A DNA stretch of 64,000 nt from Ruminococcus sp. (GTDB lineage: Bacteria > Bacillota > Clostridia > Oscillospirales > Ruminococcaceae). The DNA lies in NCBI RefSeq assembly GCF_017464355.1, contig NZ_JAFUAG010000004.1, positions 186,001-250,000 of the forward strand. The letters are read 5' to 3'. The position numbers and the translations under genes are program-made. Position 1 is the stretch's first letter, and each line of letters begins with the position of its first letter. Below, piece by piece: positions 19,044-32,078 of this stretch. Under the pieces are notes generated by a model. The model worked only from the letters and a program-made list of their open reading frames with translations, was not told the origin of the DNA and ran no database searches.

Positions 19044-19283
19044 CAAATAAAAACAGCCCCGCCCCGAAAAATGGGACGAAGCCGAAAACTCCGTGATACC
19101 ACCCAAATTGACCGTGATATGAGATCATAACACAGCCCACTCGACATCTTTAACGCAGACATACGTCACTGTTTTCACAGCGCAAGCTCAGGTCAGCCAC
19201 CGCCGTTCGGACAAGGGCTTTCACCGACCGCCCTCTCTCTGAGTCCTCCCCATGCGGATAATTCCGTCACAGCATTTGCATAT
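19044..19283 (-). promoter_or_regulatory. T-box leader, probably tRNA-Ala responsive
   Basis: On the minus strand the leader contains the stem I landmark GGTGAAAGCC, the T-box core GGGTGGTATCACGG (19091-19104), and a strong terminator formed by GCTTCGTCCC / GGGGCGGGGC followed by TGTTTTTATTT (19044-19083). The TGGT of the T-box suits a tRNA with discriminator A, as in tRNA-Ala. A GCT codon at 19185-19187 follows a TGA in the expected specifier position; this reading is less certain because I did not fold stem I fully. The genes downstream are the vWA gene and alaS. Confidence 0.88.
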
Positions 19284-20862: not shown

Positions 20863-22236
20863 TTACTCAGCTTCACCCAGAAGCTGTACAGCCTTCATGA
20901 GTATAGCCACCTCAAGGCGCTTCTTCTGTATCTGGCAGGACAGCTTGTGTGCAGCACGGATATCACCCTGATAGATGTAGTTGTTAGCATTGCAGCCGCC
21001 GCTGCAGTAGAACTTCGCCCAGCACTTCTTGCATTCGGGCTTGGTGTAAACATGGGCTCTGGCAAAATCATTCTTCATCTCCATGTTGAATGAACCGTCA
21101 TACAGGTTACCCATTTTGTACTCATCCACACCAACGAACTGATGACAAGGGAAAATATCTCCGTCAGGTGTGATAGCCACGTACTCATTGCCGCAGCCGC
21201 AGCCCCTGAGTCTCTTGATAGCGCAGGGACCCTGGTCAAGGTCCAGCATAAAGTGGAAGAAATTGATGAACTTTCCATTCTCTCTTATTTTGGCTATCTT
21301 GTCAGCCAGAACCTCATACTCCTTGAAAATGCGGGGCAGGTCGGCCTCAGTAATAGCATAGGGCTCTGAAGCATCTGTCATAACGGGCTCAACAGAGATC
21401 TGCTCAAATCCCAGGTCATACAGGTGCATAACGTCATCGGAGAAATCAAGGTTGTACTTGGTGTAAGTTCCGCGGACATACCAATCCTTATCATCGCCGC
21501 GCTTGTCCACAAGGCGCTTGAAATTCTTGGTTATAAGGTCGTAACACCCTGTGCCGTCCACACGAACACGCATTCTGTCATTGACTTCTTTTCTGCCGTC
21601 GATAGAAAGCACAACATTATACATTTCTCTGTTGATGAAATCTATCATATCATCGGTGAGGTGCATACCATTGGTAGTGGTAGTGAACCTGAATACCTTG
21701 CCAGTTTCAGCCTCTCTTGAACGGGCATACTCAACGGTCTTCATAACAACATCAAAGTTCATTGAAGGCTCACCGCCGAAGAAATCAACTTCCAGGAACT
21801 TTCTGTCATAGGACTTCTCAATGAGAAAATCTATAGCTCGCTTGGCAGTTTCCAGGTCCATGAGCTTTCTTCCCACACCGAAATCGCCTGTGGAAGCAAA
21901 GCAGTATTTGCACCTGAGGTTACAGTCATGAGAAACGTGCAGGCACATAGCCTTTATAGGTGAAGCCACCGAAGCCAGGGCGAACTTCTCGTAATCGTCC
22001 TCTGAGAACAGTATCTTATCATTATAAAGAGATACTATCTCCTGATAGCACTCTTCAACATCTTCCGCGGGATAGGTGCGCGAAAGTCTTTTCATGACAT
22101 CGGCGGGACATACCTCAGCAAAAGGAGGCTCTACCCTATCCAGCAGATCATAAGTAAGATCGTCAACTATATGCACACCGCCGCTGTTAACGTCCAGCAG
22201 GACATTGTAGCCTGACAGTTTAAACTTGTGGATCAT
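20863..22236 (-). CDS. scfB: SCIFF peptide maturase, radical SAM/SPASM thioether-forming enzyme
   Basis: The radical SAM cluster motif is CNLRCKYC (CxxxCxxC, about residues 104-111), followed by DFFGGEPSMN and FTTTTNGMHLT. The C-terminal SPASM part carries the auxiliary-cluster Cys: CGCGNEY, PCHQF, and CKKCWAKFYCSGGCNANN. The N-terminus has a short peptide-recognition-like region. The family installs Cys-to-Thr thioether bridges in the six-Cys SCIFF peptide, whose gene is directly upstream. The ribosome binding site GAGGGAAG lies 3-10 nt before the ATG. The length (457 aa) is typical. Confidence 0.95.
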   Translation of the reverse strand: MIHKFKLSGYNVLLDVNSGGVHIVDDLTYDLLDRVEPPFAEVCPADVMKRLSRTYPAEDVEECYQEIVSLYNDKILFSEDDYEKFALASVASPIKAMCLHVSHDCNLRCKYCFASTGDFGVGRKLMDLETAKRAIDFLIEKSYDRKFLEVDFFGGEPSMNFDVVMKTVEYARSREAETGKVFRFTTTTNGMHLTDDMIDFINREMYNVVLSIDGRKEVNDRMRVRVDGTGCYDLITKNFKRLVDKRGDDKDWYVRGTYTKYNLDFSDDVMHLYDLGFEQISVEPVMTDASEPYAITEADLPRIFKEYEVLADKIAKIRENGKFINFFHFMLDLDQGPCAIKRLRGCGCGNEYVAITPDGDIFPCHQFVGVDEYKMGNLYDGSFNMEMKNDFARAHVYTKPECKKCWAKFYCSGGCNANNYIYQGDIRAAHKLSCQIQKKRLEVAILMKAVQLLGEAE

Positions 22237-23153: not shown

Positions 23154-23495
23154 TTACTTCTTGTCGTCGTCATCATCGTCATCGGTAACTACCTTTGCGA
23201 TAGCCCACTTCATGACACGTATCTTGCTCCTGTCGCCGCCTGTTTCGATGACAACAGTGTCGTCCTTGACCTGGGTAACGATACCTACGATACCGCCGTT
23301 GGTGATTATCTCGTCGCCTACATCGAGTTTATCTCTCATCTCCTTATCCTGCTTTTCCTGCTTCTTCTGGGGCTTGAGGATAAAGAAATAGAAGAAAACT
23401 ACGATCAGCACCAGGGGTGCAAAGGTGAGCAGATAACCGCTGGCAGAGGTAGAGCCGTTAGCGGTCATGAGCGTTAAAAACTGAGAAAAATTCAT
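23154..23495 (-). CDS. yajC: Preprotein translocase accessory subunit YajC
   Basis: One membrane segment (about 20-42) is followed by the YajC core: FILKPQKKQEKQDKEM (about 40-54), LDVGDEIITNGGIVG (about 58-72) and VETGGDRSKIRVMKWAI. The C-terminus is a run of Asp. YajC associates with SecDF in protein export. The ATG is preceded by AGGAGG. secD and secF, often nearby, are not in this stretch. Confidence 0.93.
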   Translation of the reverse strand: MNFSQFLTLMTANGSTSASGYLLTFAPLVLIVVFFYFFILKPQKKQEKQDKEMRDKLDVGDEIITNGGIVGIVTQVKDDTVVIETGGDRSKIRVMKWAIAKVVTDDDDDDDKK

Positions 23496-27164: not shown

Positions 27165-27192
27165 AAAAAGCCGTCGGGAAACCGACGGCTTT
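27165..27192 (-). terminator. Terminator after the P-type-ATPase-like gene
   Basis: Perfect 11-bp stem AAAGCCGTCGG / CCGACGGCTTT with a GAAA-type loop, followed on the minus strand by TTTTTG. It lies 5 bp after the stop codon. Confidence 0.88.
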
Positions 27193-27196
27193 ATAT

Positions 27197-29611
27197 TCAG
27201 ACTTTTCTGCTGCTCAGCATAAGCAGTGTCGCTCCTGCAAAGACCAGATGATAAACAATTACCAGCGTGGGGGTTATCTGGGAGAAAGATCCCAGCAGCA
27301 TGGAGATAATGCATATCGCTGCGGCCAGTGCCACAGAACCCACCTGGATAGCAATGCCAAGATGTGCCGCAGCCTTTATCCGCTTGACACCTGTGATGAG
27401 CATGGCAAATGCTGGGAAATTTCCGCTGCACAGCATTGAAGATGACTCCCGTTCCTTATAACCAACTTCTTCCTCATACTCCTTATGATATCTGAAAGGC
27501 AGAAGCTTTATGGAGCCGTGGTCAAGGTCAAACAGGCTTTCAAGGAAAGCTTCGTTGAGGAAACCGTCAACGTTCCTGATAACGGTGACGATACCCTCTC
27601 TCTCCAGGGATTTCATCCACTTGCATACAGATACCGAGGGATTGACCTTGATGACGTACATAGTTGACACAACACCTGAGATAGACAGGTAAAGTATCAC
27701 GTTGCCCTTGCCGTATTCATCTTCTTTGGAGATAGGCGGCAGGCCGTCGATAGAATGGTCTTCCATATGTCTGCGGGTGCCCAGCAGCACACGCTTGTTA
27801 TCTATCCAGCCCGAGATACCGCGGTCATCTTCAAAGATGTAGCTTTCCACGGAGTATAGCATATCGACCTTGCCTTTGAGTATCTTGTAGAAGGAATTTT
27901 TCAGCACGCTGTCAGACCTGAACACCAGGCTTGCAGCCATGAGAATGCACTCATCAAGGGGGTCGGTGGAGAGCAGCTTGAGGTTTACCAGTTCAATGCT
28001 TTCCTTCGGGAAAAGCTGCGCTGCGTCCACAAGAACAGAATTTGTTTCAGCATACTCCTCCACTGCGCTGTAGCCCAGTATAACGGAAGAATACTGCAGA
28101 TACTTGTTCGTCGCCCTGTTTATGGGGATATTCACTGCAAGTATGAGCGAAAGTGAGGAGCACATGGTAACTGTGCCCGAAAATGCTGCCAGTGCAACAT
28201 ATATCTTTTCAACGCTTGAAGAAGCGTTCTTGTCACACACAAATGAGAGCAGACCTGTCAGCAATCCTGCCACCAGTATTATAGGCGCGGAGAACTTTGC
28301 AAATCTGTCGGAAATATCGGGTGCATAGCTGTTCTTGATAAAGTCATCGACAAACTCGGTCTTGCGCATAGCCGCCATGTTTGCGTTTATGGGAACAGCT
28401 CCCCTGCCGAAGTTGACCGCCGTACTGCTGTCAACGCTCTTGACAGCGTATCTGTCGAACTCACCTGCAATATACCTGAAATTCTTCTCGGTGCGCTGGA
28501 CTATCATCATCTTGCCGAGGGTATTAAAGATAAGTCCCACAATGGCCGCAGAAATATAAACGTGATAGTAGCAGTCACGGACAGAATCAGGCTCAAACAA
28601 AGTGGCAATGCCCGCAATGACCGAAACAAATATGCCAACAGCGGCGATCGAATCATTATCGGGTCTACGAAGGAACATATTTTTAAGCCCCGCTGTCATG
28701 ACAGAATAGGAAACACCCAGCGCCAGCAGACCCATTATCGTATTGGAAAACAGGTATGCCGATGGTGACACCGACCTGTCAAACACCCTGATGACCGACA
28801 TTTCAAGGTCATTGGCGATAGTTATCAGCAGGCTGGAAAGTCCCGTGAAAAGCAGCACGCACATACGCAAAAACAGATTACTCTTGACCTGCAGGATATC
28901 GCTCAGCACCTTGGAAGCTTCATCGTAGCTTTCAAATTCCTTTTGGCCGTAAATGGTCTTTTTACGCTTGGGCTTGGCATTTTCGCTGTCAGTATCATCG
29001 TCCATGCTATCAAGCACGAAGTCCTTGACCTTCTTGCTCCTTCGGGCTTTTACCTGGGAAGATTTGCGGAAATACTCCTCGTCACTGCTCTCTTCCCTGT
29101 CTTCGGTAACATCTATCTCGCCGGTATCCTGTATTATCTTGTTGGTAAGACCCAGCTTAAGGTCCTTGATACTGGTGCGCTTGACAGGTTCGTCCACAGG
29201 CTCGCCCTTGACCTTGTCCTTGCCGCTTTCCTTAGAAAGCTCGCTGATCTTCTTAGCAGTATCAACTGCACTAGCTTCATCAAGAACACTTTCAAGCTCT
29301 TCGGCAGCCTCACTGAAAACTGCTTTGTCTTCCTCAGCATCTGTATTCTCTGCCTCAGTAGCCCGGGCAGCTTCCACGATAACAGGCTCGACCTCAACAG
29401 TTTCGGCCGTTTCATTTATCACAGCTTCTGCCTCTGAAATAACAGGGGCTTCAACTCTGACATCTTCGGCGTCATCTGCGGACTTGGAAGTTTCGGGTCT
29501 TGAAAAGCTTATATCAAAATCATCGGCACCTTCCGCCGTCTTATCATCTTTTTTATTGTAATTTTCGCTGAATTCCGACATGAAATCGTCGATGGAATAT
29601 TTATCAGCCAA
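27197..29611 (-). CDS. Degenerate P-type ATPase-like membrane protein with long acidic N-terminus
   Basis: Residues 1-240 are hydrophilic, acidic and low complexity. About six to eight membrane helices follow in pairs (near 248-268, 288-306, 322-338, 350-365, 443-460, 472-495, 757-775, 780-798). The soluble part after helix 6 aligns in order with a P-type ATPase: the phosphorylation site DKTGTLT reads DAAQLFP (D529); the N domain shows AASL (559-562) and GWIDNKRVLLGTRRHMED; TGDN reads RNVD (679-682); and the GDGxNDxP region reads CSGNFPAF before GIAIQVGS. TGES is absent. It cannot run the normal phosphorylation cycle. It follows rlmB by 17 bp. The function is unknown. Confidence 0.8.
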   Translation of the reverse strand: MADKYSIDDFMSEFSENYNKKDDKTAEGADDFDISFSRPETSKSADDAEDVRVEAPVISEAEAVINETAETVEVEPVIVEAARATEAENTDAEEDKAVFSEAAEELESVLDEASAVDTAKKISELSKESGKDKVKGEPVDEPVKRTSIKDLKLGLTNKIIQDTGEIDVTEDREESSDEEYFRKSSQVKARRSKKVKDFVLDSMDDDTDSENAKPKRKKTIYGQKEFESYDEASKVLSDILQVKSNLFLRMCVLLFTGLSSLLITIANDLEMSVIRVFDRSVSPSAYLFSNTIMGLLALGVSYSVMTAGLKNMFLRRPDNDSIAAVGIFVSVIAGIATLFEPDSVRDCYYHVYISAAIVGLIFNTLGKMMIVQRTEKNFRYIAGEFDRYAVKSVDSSTAVNFGRGAVPINANMAAMRKTEFVDDFIKNSYAPDISDRFAKFSAPIILVAGLLTGLLSFVCDKNASSSVEKIYVALAAFSGTVTMCSSLSLILAVNIPINRATNKYLQYSSVILGYSAVEEYAETNSVLVDAAQLFPKESIELVNLKLLSTDPLDECILMAASLVFRSDSVLKNSFYKILKGKVDMLYSVESYIFEDDRGISGWIDNKRVLLGTRRHMEDHSIDGLPPISKEDEYGKGNVILYLSISGVVSTMYVIKVNPSVSVCKWMKSLEREGIVTVIRNVDGFLNEAFLESLFDLDHGSIKLLPFRYHKEYEEEVGYKERESSSMLCSGNFPAFAMLITGVKRIKAAAHLGIAIQVGSVALAAAICIISMLLGSFSQITPTLVIVYHLVFAGATLLMLSSRKV

Positions 29612-29628
29612 TCCATATCACTCCATAT

Positions 29629-30396
29629 CTACTTATTGGCGCGCTGTCGCACTACCTCATACATAAAGATACCTGCCGCCACAGAGGCATTCAGCGAGGT
29701 TATCTTTCCTGCCATGGGAAGACTCAGCAGAAAGTCACACTTCTCTTTCATCAGCCTGCCCATGCCGAAACCCTCAGAACCTACTACCAGCCCGATAGGC
29801 CCCCGCAGGTCAACGCCAGAATAGCTTTCTCCTGCACCGTCTGTGCCATATATCCAAATACCTTGTTTCTTCAGTTCATCAACTGCCGCAGGAAGATTAG
29901 GCACCCTGGCCACAGGCAGCCAGCTTGCAGCTCCCGCCGAGGTCTTGAAGACCGTGTGGTTGAGCGAGGCACTTCTGCGCTTTGGTATGATGATACCATG
30001 AGCACCTGCAGCCTCGGCTGTACGAATGATAGCGCCGAGATTATGAGGATCCTCAATCTCATCGCAGATGATTATGAAAGGGTCTTCGCCCTTTTCCTGA
30101 GCGACAGCAAGTATATCCTCGACCTCAACATACTCAGCACAGGCGCCTATAGCTATAACACCCTGATGCGATGCACCGTTAGCCATGTTATCAAGCTTGA
30201 CCTCACGCACCTGCTTTACGGGTATGTCCCTTTCCTTAGCCAGCTTCAGTATCAGCGACACCGAACCTTTTGCATCGGGGTTGACAAATATAGTATCTAT
30301 CAGCTTATCCGCCTTAAGGGCTTCGATAACGGGGTTCCTGCCAAGGATAAGTTCTTCTTCGCGTTTATTATCGTTATTTCTGTTATTATCTTTCAT
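29629..30396 (-). CDS. rlmB: 23S rRNA 2'-O-methyltransferase, TrmH/SpoU family
   Basis: A charged Asn/Lys-rich N-terminal tail is followed by the substrate-binding domain (LILGRNPVIEALKA) and the SpoU knot: CDEIEDPHNLGAIIRTAEA (motif 1), PIGLVVGSEGFGM (motif 2) and LPMAGKITSLNASVAAGI (motif 3). The family methylates G2251 of 23S rRNA. Length (255 aa) and motif order are normal. It is the first gene of a two-gene unit with the P-type-ATPase-like gene. Confidence 0.93.
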   Translation of the reverse strand: MKDNNRNNDNKREEELILGRNPVIEALKADKLIDTIFVNPDAKGSVSLILKLAKERDIPVKQVREVKLDNMANGASHQGVIAIGACAEYVEVEDILAVAQEKGEDPFIIICDEIEDPHNLGAIIRTAEAAGAHGIIIPKRRSASLNHTVFKTSAGAASWLPVARVPNLPAAVDELKKQGIWIYGTDGAGESYSGVDLRGPIGLVVGSEGFGMGRLMKEKCDFLLSLPMAGKITSLNASVAAGIFMYEVVRQRANK

Positions 30397-31309: not shown

Positions 31310-31993
31310 TTATCTGGTTGTCAAAAATTTTATAGCGCGCTCGATGGAATCCTTGGAATTTCCCCAATCCGCATCAGAACCATTGTTGCGGTAGTCGTAC
31401 ATATTGCAGTAGTGGGTAACGTCTTTTTCCAGTTCAGCCAGATATTTCTCGGTCAGGGCAGCACAAGCTTCCTTGAAACCGTTCTGCAGCTTCTTGTCCA
31501 TTTTGTCAGTGCAGGCAGATACCAGCATATCATAGTGGGGCAGGCAGAGCATTTCCTGCTCGGCAAAAAGCTCACGGAACTCGCTCTGCTGCTCATAGAG
31601 TTCAAACAGCGTCACCATTATCCTGGACATACCCCATTCCACCTTGTTGCAGACGAAGCAGTCATTATTTACAGCCGATACTCTCTTCTGCCTGGCACTT
31701 TTGCCCTCGAATATGCTCTGACGTTTCAGCACGTTCTTCTGCAGGGACTGCAGGTGCGTTGACAGCATCAGTGCCAGAGAAAGGCGGTTCTTGCAGGCAC
31801 GCATCTGTTCAAAATGCACCTTGCAGAAACCCTGTTTGTTGGTCTCTATGCGGACATCAGGTTCCATCATGGCGGCACCCATTATGTAATCGACTGTGCG
31901 CTGTTCAAGGGTATCCCTCAGGCGGCAGATAGGGCAGCCGCATTTCGGCTCGAATATCTCTGTTACAGGTATGGTAAGTATGCTTTCTCTCAT
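31310..31993 (-). CDS. DUF6062-type protein with CxxC/CxxH pairs
   Basis: The 227-residue soluble protein has paired metal-type motifs: CGCPIC near the N-terminus, FCKVHF, CFVC in the middle, and CLPHYD. The layout is that of DUF6062 proteins in clostridia, whose role is unknown; zinc binding or thiol chemistry is plausible. ATG 31993 is chosen because AAAGGA lies 8 nt upstream. The longer frame (to 32044) runs into the promoter. It is a single-gene unit. Confidence 0.75.
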   Translation of the reverse strand: MRESILTIPVTEIFEPKCGCPICRLRDTLEQRTVDYIMGAAMMEPDVRIETNKQGFCKVHFEQMRACKNRLSLALMLSTHLQSLQKNVLKRQSIFEGKSARQKRVSAVNNDCFVCNKVEWGMSRIMVTLFELYEQQSEFRELFAEQEMLCLPHYDMLVSACTDKMDKKLQNGFKEACAALTEKYLAELEKDVTHYCNMYDYRNNGSDADWGNSKDSIERAIKFLTTR

Positions 31994-32028
31994 ATGATCT
32001 GTCCTTTCATGGAATAGCAAAAAAATAC

Positions 32029-32078
32029 TTGAAAAATGTTTCAATATATAGTATAATGTATTCTGAAAGAATTTGCAA
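32029..32078. promoter_or_regulatory. Overlapping divergent promoters
   Basis: Plus strand: TTGAAA (32029-32034), 17 bp, TATAAT (32052-32057), towards the Imm1-like gene. Minus strand: TTGCAA (32073-32078), 17 bp, TATACT (32050-32055), towards the DUF6062 gene. The two -10 elements share four base pairs, so polymerase can occupy only one at a time. Confidence 0.75.

Follow-up and report, generated by a model that had tools for sequence, protein, structure and literature searches.

A protein derived from copper-type P1B ATPases, with its catalytic motifs lost, is conserved beside rlmB across a bacterial order

What use is a P-type ATPase that seems to have lost the means to be an ATPase? This question is raised by a gene in the 64,000-nucleotide stretch of Ruminococcus DNA (the window). 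For this gene, a first-pass annotation had claimed (i) an intact frame of 804 codons, (ii) a P-type segment order without catalytic motifs, and (iii) a conserved pseudo-pump, perhaps a sensor or scaffold, rather than a decayed gene. The frame was confirmed at 27197..29611 on the minus strand, and the parts of its product, hereafter the pseudo-pump, are listed in Table 1 with the flanking features. The N-terminal extension is acidic, as had been described, but ~213 residues, and not 240, precede the core. The hairpin that follows the stop codon stood out on folding (z -5.96, with 0 of 200 shuffles equally stable), though it was absent from the list produced by a consensus terminator scan.

Table 1. 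The pseudo-pump gene, its parts and its flanking features in the window
Feature	Residues	Position	Strand	Basis or remark
Terminator-like hairpin, Rho-independent type, 11 bp, T-rich 3' side		27167..27192	-	Just past stop codon
Pseudo-P1B-type ATPase gene, 804 aa, TTG start, uninterrupted frame		27197..29611	-	Homology, predicted structure
Last two transmembrane helices (M5, M6)	743-804	27200..27385	-	
P-domain-like fold, second part; GDGxND erased, domain end shortened	658-742	27386..27640	-	
CSGNFPAF where GDGxNDxP expected	728-735	27407..27430	-	
Retained TGD Asp	D682	27566..27568	-	71/72 relatives
N (nucleotide-binding) domain fold; SEHP E and H lost	536-657	27641..28006	-	
N-domain glycine loops kept (G598 of GxG, G611 of GN/GTR)	598-613	27773..27820	-	
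DAAQLFP where DKTGTLT expected	529-535	28007..28027	-	LFP is the family's own motif
M3 and M4 transmembrane helices; CPC metal site replaced	434-508	28088..28312	-	
Actuator (A) domain remnant, without TGES	383-433	28313..28465	-	Alignment, predicted structure
First four transmembrane helices (MA, MB, M1, M2, P1B order)	245-382	28466..28879	-	
Acidic N-tail, poorly conserved	1-213	28973..29611	-	61 D/E, 30 K/R
N-terminal short motif, YSIDDFMSEF	5-14	29570..29599	-	Family consensus F-S-x-D-D-I-L-x-E-Y
rlmB, 23S rRNA (guanosine-2'-O)-methyltransferase		29629..30396	-	TIGR00186, 245 bits, above cut-off

By sequence comparison, the homology of the pseudo-pump to P1B ATPases is far above chance. 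A single-sequence search with the window protein matched LpCopA (3rfu) at E=1.9e-13 over residues 407-680. A profile search, a kind of check that the first-pass annotation had proposed, was run with a family profile and matched LpCopA at E=1.9e-38, and its second aligned stretch (LpCopA 81-216) supports the assignment of the first four helices. LpCopA was the best match both by sequence and by comparison of predicted structures. Among NCBIfam models, TIGR01525 matched the window protein at E=1.9e-6, with 27 bits against a curated cut-off of 346, and the models matched by most family members were CopA (61/72) and TIGR01525 (52/72); Pfam gave the window protein no meaningful family, the two rows returned (E 0.2 or higher) being at the level of chance. 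The predicted fold is confident overall and reproduces the P1B fold and helix order (MA, MB, M1-M6, N, P), with all eight transmembrane helices predicted at high confidence. Structure prediction, which had also been suggested as a check, placed both N and P domain folds in the protein, and the claimed segment order held, with AASL at residue 559 and GWIDNKRVLLG at 601. Alignment and predicted structure both show that the protein has kept its membrane body of eight helices as well as the folds of the N and P domains.

The catalytic motifs were compared between 72 family members and 12 genuine P-type pumps, of which the window's genome supplied three and other loci the remainder. At each compared catalytic position the genuine pumps keep the residue in 10-12 of 12 sequences, and in 12 of 12 at all five DKTGT positions. 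The corresponding columns of the family hold D in 46/72, K in 0/72, T in 6/72, G in 0/72 and T in 0/72, and at the place of TGTLT the family's LFP motif is found (frequencies of 0.93 for F534 and 0.90 for P535). Both acids of GDGxND are retained in 0/72; one alignment has gaps in these columns for every one of the 72 rows, and another is ungapped there, with F, L, I, M, Y, V or K at the place of the second acid. The P-domain Lys survives in 3/72. The TGES columns are unconserved, and the A domain is halved relative to genuine pumps, the TM2-TM3 loop that holds it measuring 52-71 residues (median 68) as against 133 in 11 uncut genuine pumps (the twelfth, cut by the end of its locus, was left out). 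The distance from the GDGxND place to the next helix is 23-26 residues in the family and 49-50 in genuine pumps. Judged from these alignments, all 72 relatives have lost the sites for metal and for phosphorylation, together with the Mg-binding and dephosphorylation loops.

The substitutions named in the first-pass annotation were thus all found (DAAQLFP at residue 529, RNVD at 679, CSGNFPAF at 728, and no TGES), but its statement that every catalytic motif is erased went too far. The DKTGT Asp (D529), whose conservation it had singled out for checking, is present in 46/72 relatives and absent in 26/72; the TGD Asp (D682) is kept in 71/72, as are G598 (second G of GxG) and G611 (GN), each in 71/72. 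With CopA (LpCopA 3rfu/4bbj), the pseudo-pump shares the helix order MA, MB, M1-M6, the N and P folds, the N-domain glycine loops and the TGD Asp; it differs in lacking CPC, DKTGT, GDGxND, the SEHP His and TGES, in its halved A domain and a P domain ~25 residues shorter, and in its long acidic N-tail of low conservation. Because the defining catalytic features were looked for and found missing, the pseudo-pump is P1B-derived by descent but is not to be classed as a P1B ATPase in function.

When 297 genomes from the window's GTDB family were searched with the single protein, 288 gave matches. Such a search cannot split pseudo-pumps from genuine pumps, and profiles were therefore built from relatives. 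The narrower profile (A1, 21 sequences) had any match in 154 of 393 genomes and in 202 of 247; because it missed distant members, presence was scored with a second profile (A2), built from 72 sequences with 15-87% identity to the window protein and leaving out L004 (a near-duplicate), L005 (at a contig edge) and L056 (with a frame break). The 75 pseudo-pump loci are not independent, in that L004 and L007 look like one strain; the named loci belong to Ruminococcus. With A2, the pseudo-pump was found in 241 of 247 genomes (completeness 90% or more, E <= 6.6e-55) of an order that we take to be Oscillospirales. Among the A2 matches listed across the order, nearly all were full length and all were stop-free except that of one relative (G696, internal TGA). 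One of the six genomes without a match, G698, carries the start of a pseudo-pump, with its motif, at a contig end after rlmB; in G771 and G723, order genomes without the pseudo-pump, the best A2 matches turned out to be genuine pumps.

Within a 348-genome sample of the phylum, the six genomes from the order scored 311.5-812 bits over the whole A2 profile, and no pseudo-pump was found with A2 among the 342 genomes outside it (up to three candidates scored per genome). The best match outside the order (132.9 bits) covered positions 210-499 only, as expected of a genuine pump. Seven outside matches were read, namely the top four (G904, G1003, G1002 and G891) and three from lower down (G951, G1135 and G1170), and in six of the seven DKTGT, GDGIND, TGES and CPC were all present.

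Selection on the gene, which the first-pass annotation had proposed to check through dN/dS of homologues, was estimated by the Nei-Gojobori method. The core gave dN/dS values of 0.033-0.072 in eight pairs and the N-tail 0.11-0.43 in seven of the eight, dS being saturated in the eighth; single values are rough because dS is high in several pairs. On these estimates the gene is under purifying selection, and together with its order-wide presence this upholds the claim of a conserved pseudo-pump. Sequence and model combined indicate a kept fold, lost catalytic residues and a gene under selection, the marks of a pseudoenzyme derived from a P-type ATPase.

In the window, rlmB ends 17 nt upstream of the pseudo-pump gene on the same strand, and the two are likely cotranscribed. 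In 72 of 75 loci, the gene directly preceding the pseudo-pump on its strand is rlmB; in L034 it is 593 bases ahead of the readable part of the pseudo-pump gene, in L056 it precedes the first piece of the frame-broken pseudo-pump, and L005, at its contig edge, is outside the reach of this count. Of the six order genomes without a pseudo-pump match, five are also without an RlmB-level match, and G698 has rlmB. In G194, rlmB is followed by only the start of a pseudo-pump ahead of the contig end; in the family set, search positions put rlmB at a contig edge in G223, G227 and G016, and no RlmB-level match was found in G070, G215, G234 and G266. Strict co-occurrence was rejected: the pairing is not obligatory, since G125 and G200 (genus g4; loci L130 and L131) have rlmB without the pseudo-pump. 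G003 and G255 of the same genus have the pseudo-pump, with rlmB pairing seen in G003, and the two pairs of genomes present a natural loss for comparison. Ten genomes of other orders have genes other than the pseudo-pump after rlmB, in five cases what is presumably an NYN nuclease of the Rae1/YacP kind.

After rlmB, the commonest neighbor family is elongation factor G (one member confirmed with NCBIfam, the rest by BLAST cluster), which at 12 of the 40 order-wide loci is the nearest downstream gene on the same strand; with cluster 2 (8/40), an antisense shadow of rlmB, set aside, the family ranked after it is present in 7 of 40. Downstream elongation factor G was seen in several families (L040, L042, L044, L045, L050, L056, L063, L065, L070, L073, L074 and L075). 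A conserved operon does not by itself prove joint function. At 31310-32044 (-), the window encodes a protein of 244 aa that has CxxC-like pairs and matches no NCBIfam model at E <= 1e-4; by eye it corresponds to neighbor cluster 6, recurring near rlmB in 7 of 75 loci.

The N-tails measure 56-909 residues (by script) and are net acidic in 67/72. Mostly near their N-terminus, the pseudo-pumps carry a short motif with the consensus FSxDDILxEY, a loose form of which occurs in 42 of 76 family ORFs as against 1 among the 2547 other ORFs at these loci, and this exception is apparently the beginning of the L034 gene itself. A shorter expression was positive in 51 of 71 tails (L004, L005, L034 and L056 left out), and the remaining 20 had no motif by this expression. 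It found 65 motifs versus 3.6 in shuffled tails (maximum 9), and second or third copies in 13 proteins (14 copies versus 0.13 in shuffles); the tails were taken stop to stop, and some contain a few residues ahead of the true start.

When 21 genomes were searched with a motif profile, 16 gave a match at E <= 1, and in 12 the best match (E <= 0.0012) was the pseudo-pump, identified by its known place in five genomes and by its frame length and tail in the others. The window's own genome yielded the pseudo-pump only. In two closely related genomes the N-terminus of MltG matched (E 0.015 and 0.09), as did MltG of a third at E 0.39; the MltG motif draws on three genomes of one genus and weak E-values, with a YceG domain found in two of the proteins and the third assigned by similarity. 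That MltG carries a like motif N-terminally suggests that the pseudo-pump and the cell-wall machinery have a partner in common. MltG/MpgA, a YceG-like endolytic transglycosylase, resembles the pseudo-pump in the motif and acidic tail at its N-terminus in these three Ruminococcus genomes; it is a cell-wall enzyme of unrelated fold, and the tail alone is alike. At the three loci (L119, L120 and L126), MltG has at its N-terminus a motif resembling the pseudo-pump one (MSDKNFDIDDIL...), together with a long acidic tail; in L126 there are several motif-like copies. A prolipoprotein diacylglyceryl transferase, Lgt, in genome G226 (L125) has a long acidic C-terminal tail with motif-like AEDIVAEV and VEDIISEV. 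The other weak profile matches (RsmB twice, NusB, HtrA, PflA and DprA, named by eye) lie inside folded domains and look like chance.

We favor, with somewhat more confidence than doubt, the reading that the pseudo-pump, a pseudoenzyme conserved across the order and descended from a copper-type P1B ATPase, acts as a membrane scaffold with a partner-docking N-tail. The engine is lost, yet the gene is kept beside rlmB in nearly every sampled genome of the order, suggesting that the protein is probably a membrane docking platform and not a pump. Of the two roles offered in the first-pass annotation, the scaffold gains support from the conserved motif and the sensor is kept as a rival. As a membrane-embedded scaffold or tether, the pseudo-pump would display one to three copies of FSxDDILxEY on its long N-tail, cytosolic if P1B topology holds, and the motif would dock a cytosolic partner. 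Retention of both the glycine loops and the TGD Asp suggests a headpiece that still holds a ligand or a fixed N-P interface.

The docked partner may be shared with MltG and would most plausibly be KhpB, a guess backed by literature from other genera: in the portions of these reports consulted, the Jag domain of KhpB binds the N-terminal region of MpgA (PMC12542702), and DivIVA interacts with MltG in S. suis (PMC10269899). The rlmB pairing, and elongation factor G downstream in some loci, suggest that envelope growth may be linked to ribosome or RNA processes. When these two associations are taken together with the candidate partner KhpB and the MltG tail motif, it is conceivable, if rather doubtful, that the order uses a dead copper pump as a platform tying ribosome/RNA processes to peptidoglycan growth through an often-repeated N-tail motif.

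The best-surviving alternative to the scaffold, though an unlikely one, is a ligand sensor, in which the pseudo N/P headpiece would bind a nucleotide or related small molecule and signal by shape change without hydrolysis, the N-tail passing the state of the headpiece to a partner. Consistent with this idea, the N domain ranks among the two segments that are best conserved (commonest-residue frequency averaging 0.51), G598, G611 and D682 are among the most conserved positions (71/72 each), and there is a precedent in human TMEM94, which, in the part of the report consulted, binds AMPPCP at micromolar concentrations though no ATPase activity was detected (PMC12134183). The pocket itself has fared less well: the SEHP His of the adenine pocket is retained in 0/72 and the Glu in 3/72, the first G of GxG in only 38/72, and the Mg loop of the P domain is gone. 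We consider it improbable that the membrane body of the pump was instead retained as a passive channel, be it a lipid- or ion-conducting pore, or as a secondary transporter. All eight transmembrane helices are kept in a high-confidence prediction, the M4 proline persists in 32/72, and a Cys stands one position before the CPC site in 36/72, but the CPC cysteines themselves are found in 1/72 each, and the membrane helices belong with the less conserved parts of the protein (0.38-0.42, versus 0.51 for the N domain).

A dependence of the favored scaffold on a copper pump can be judged in reduced genomes. G068 (0.7 Mb, 97% complete) and G160, G087 and G174 (0.8-0.9 Mb) have one A2 match each, which is close to full length (E from 1.3e-96 to 1.4e-105), and none of them has a further A2 match of the kind that genuine P1B pumps give elsewhere; pairing with rlmB and an N-tail motif are both present in the two loci read, G068 and G087. 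A general P-type model found one P-type ORF in each of the four (823-843 aa), which A2 does not match. Two further genomes of reduced size gave a partial A2 match at a contig end (G280, 68% complete) and no A2 match, with rlmB at the contig edge (G227, 89% complete). Presence in the four reduced genomes without a further A2 match argues, on sequence grounds, for a core role that would be independent of any P1B pump. These four genomes also make it very unlikely that the pseudo-pump serves a genuine P1B copper pump of its own cell as regulatory subunit or decoy partner: A2 does detect genuine P1B pumps in other genomes, and the one P-type ORF that the general model found in each of the four is unmatched by it. 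In favor of such a role, the window's genome has three genuine P1B ATPases above the family cut-off, and the pseudo-pump family is most like CopA (61/72 match the CopA model).

Pseudoenzymes are well known among kinases and proteases; to our knowledge, no bacterial P-type ATPase kept as a pseudoenzyme has been described, and we found no description of one of this kind in the open-access PMC literature. The portions consulted of two reports describe human TMEM94 (ERMA) as P-type-like, without TGES, and with DKQGI for DKTGT and GSSANL for GDGVND, and show its activity to be contested, ATPase being denied by one group and asserted by another (PMC12134183, PMC13322241). TMEM94 and the pseudo-pump have in common a P-type-like architecture with non-canonical motifs. 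By its published description, as far as consulted, TMEM94 belongs to the eukaryotic ER, has ten helices and an A-domain-like part, and is nearest to SPCA (PMC12134183), whereas the pseudo-pump is bacterial, P1B-derived and rlmB-paired, with eight helices and an A domain that is mostly gone.

It is highly improbable that the pseudo-pump is still a catalyst through a rewritten active site, as one side argues for TMEM94/ERMA. Such a catalyst could draw on the phosphorylation-site Asp (46/72) and the TGD Asp (71/72), and an Asp-to-Asn change in ERMA stops Mg uptake despite the non-canonical motifs, according to its authors in the part of the report consulted (PMC13322241). The phosphorylation-site Asp, however, is absent in 26/72 of the family, the DKTGT Lys and both GDGxND acids are found in 0/72, TGES is missing, and so is half of the A domain. 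A decaying copy or pseudogene, or a chance likeness to P-type ATPases, to which the missing motifs and the internal TGA of G696 could be taken to point, deserves next to no credence, given (i) relatives that are alike across the order and, among the matches listed, stop-free except G696, (ii) purifying selection on the core (0.033-0.072), and (iii) the matches to 3rfu (E=1.9e-13) and, by profile, to LpCopA (E=1.9e-38), with a confident fold that matches in structure.

The pseudo-pump is a bacterial P-type pseudoenzyme present in almost every sampled genome of its order, kept at genome sizes of 0.7-0.9 Mb and without a Pfam family. With a motif open to testing and a partner gene that is nearly fixed, it supplies a bacterial parallel to human TMEM94, whose case is disputed, and a concrete way into how an ion-pump fold can be reused without ATP.

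A second dead P1B-like protein was seen outside the order, in genome G1170 (L099, C15:11500-15000; L121 3411-5292 (-), 627 aa). Like the pseudo-pump, it is without DKTGT, GDGxND and TGES and has a short A-domain loop (76 residues); it carries CPG for CPC, GRSILLD for DKTGTLT and TSDS for TGDN. It differs in having no long N-tail and in its neighbors, which by eye are ispE- and glmU-like, and from its sequence it looks like an independent loss.

Elsewhere in the window, the minus strand carries a T-box leader RNA at 19069-19279 (Rfam RF00230, 94.3 bits versus a gathering score of 93), a SCIFF-peptide radical SAM maturase at 20863-22236 (TIGR03974, 678 bits, above cut-off), and, at 23154-23495, a YajC whose C-terminal part has seven consecutive Asp (DDDDDDDKK).
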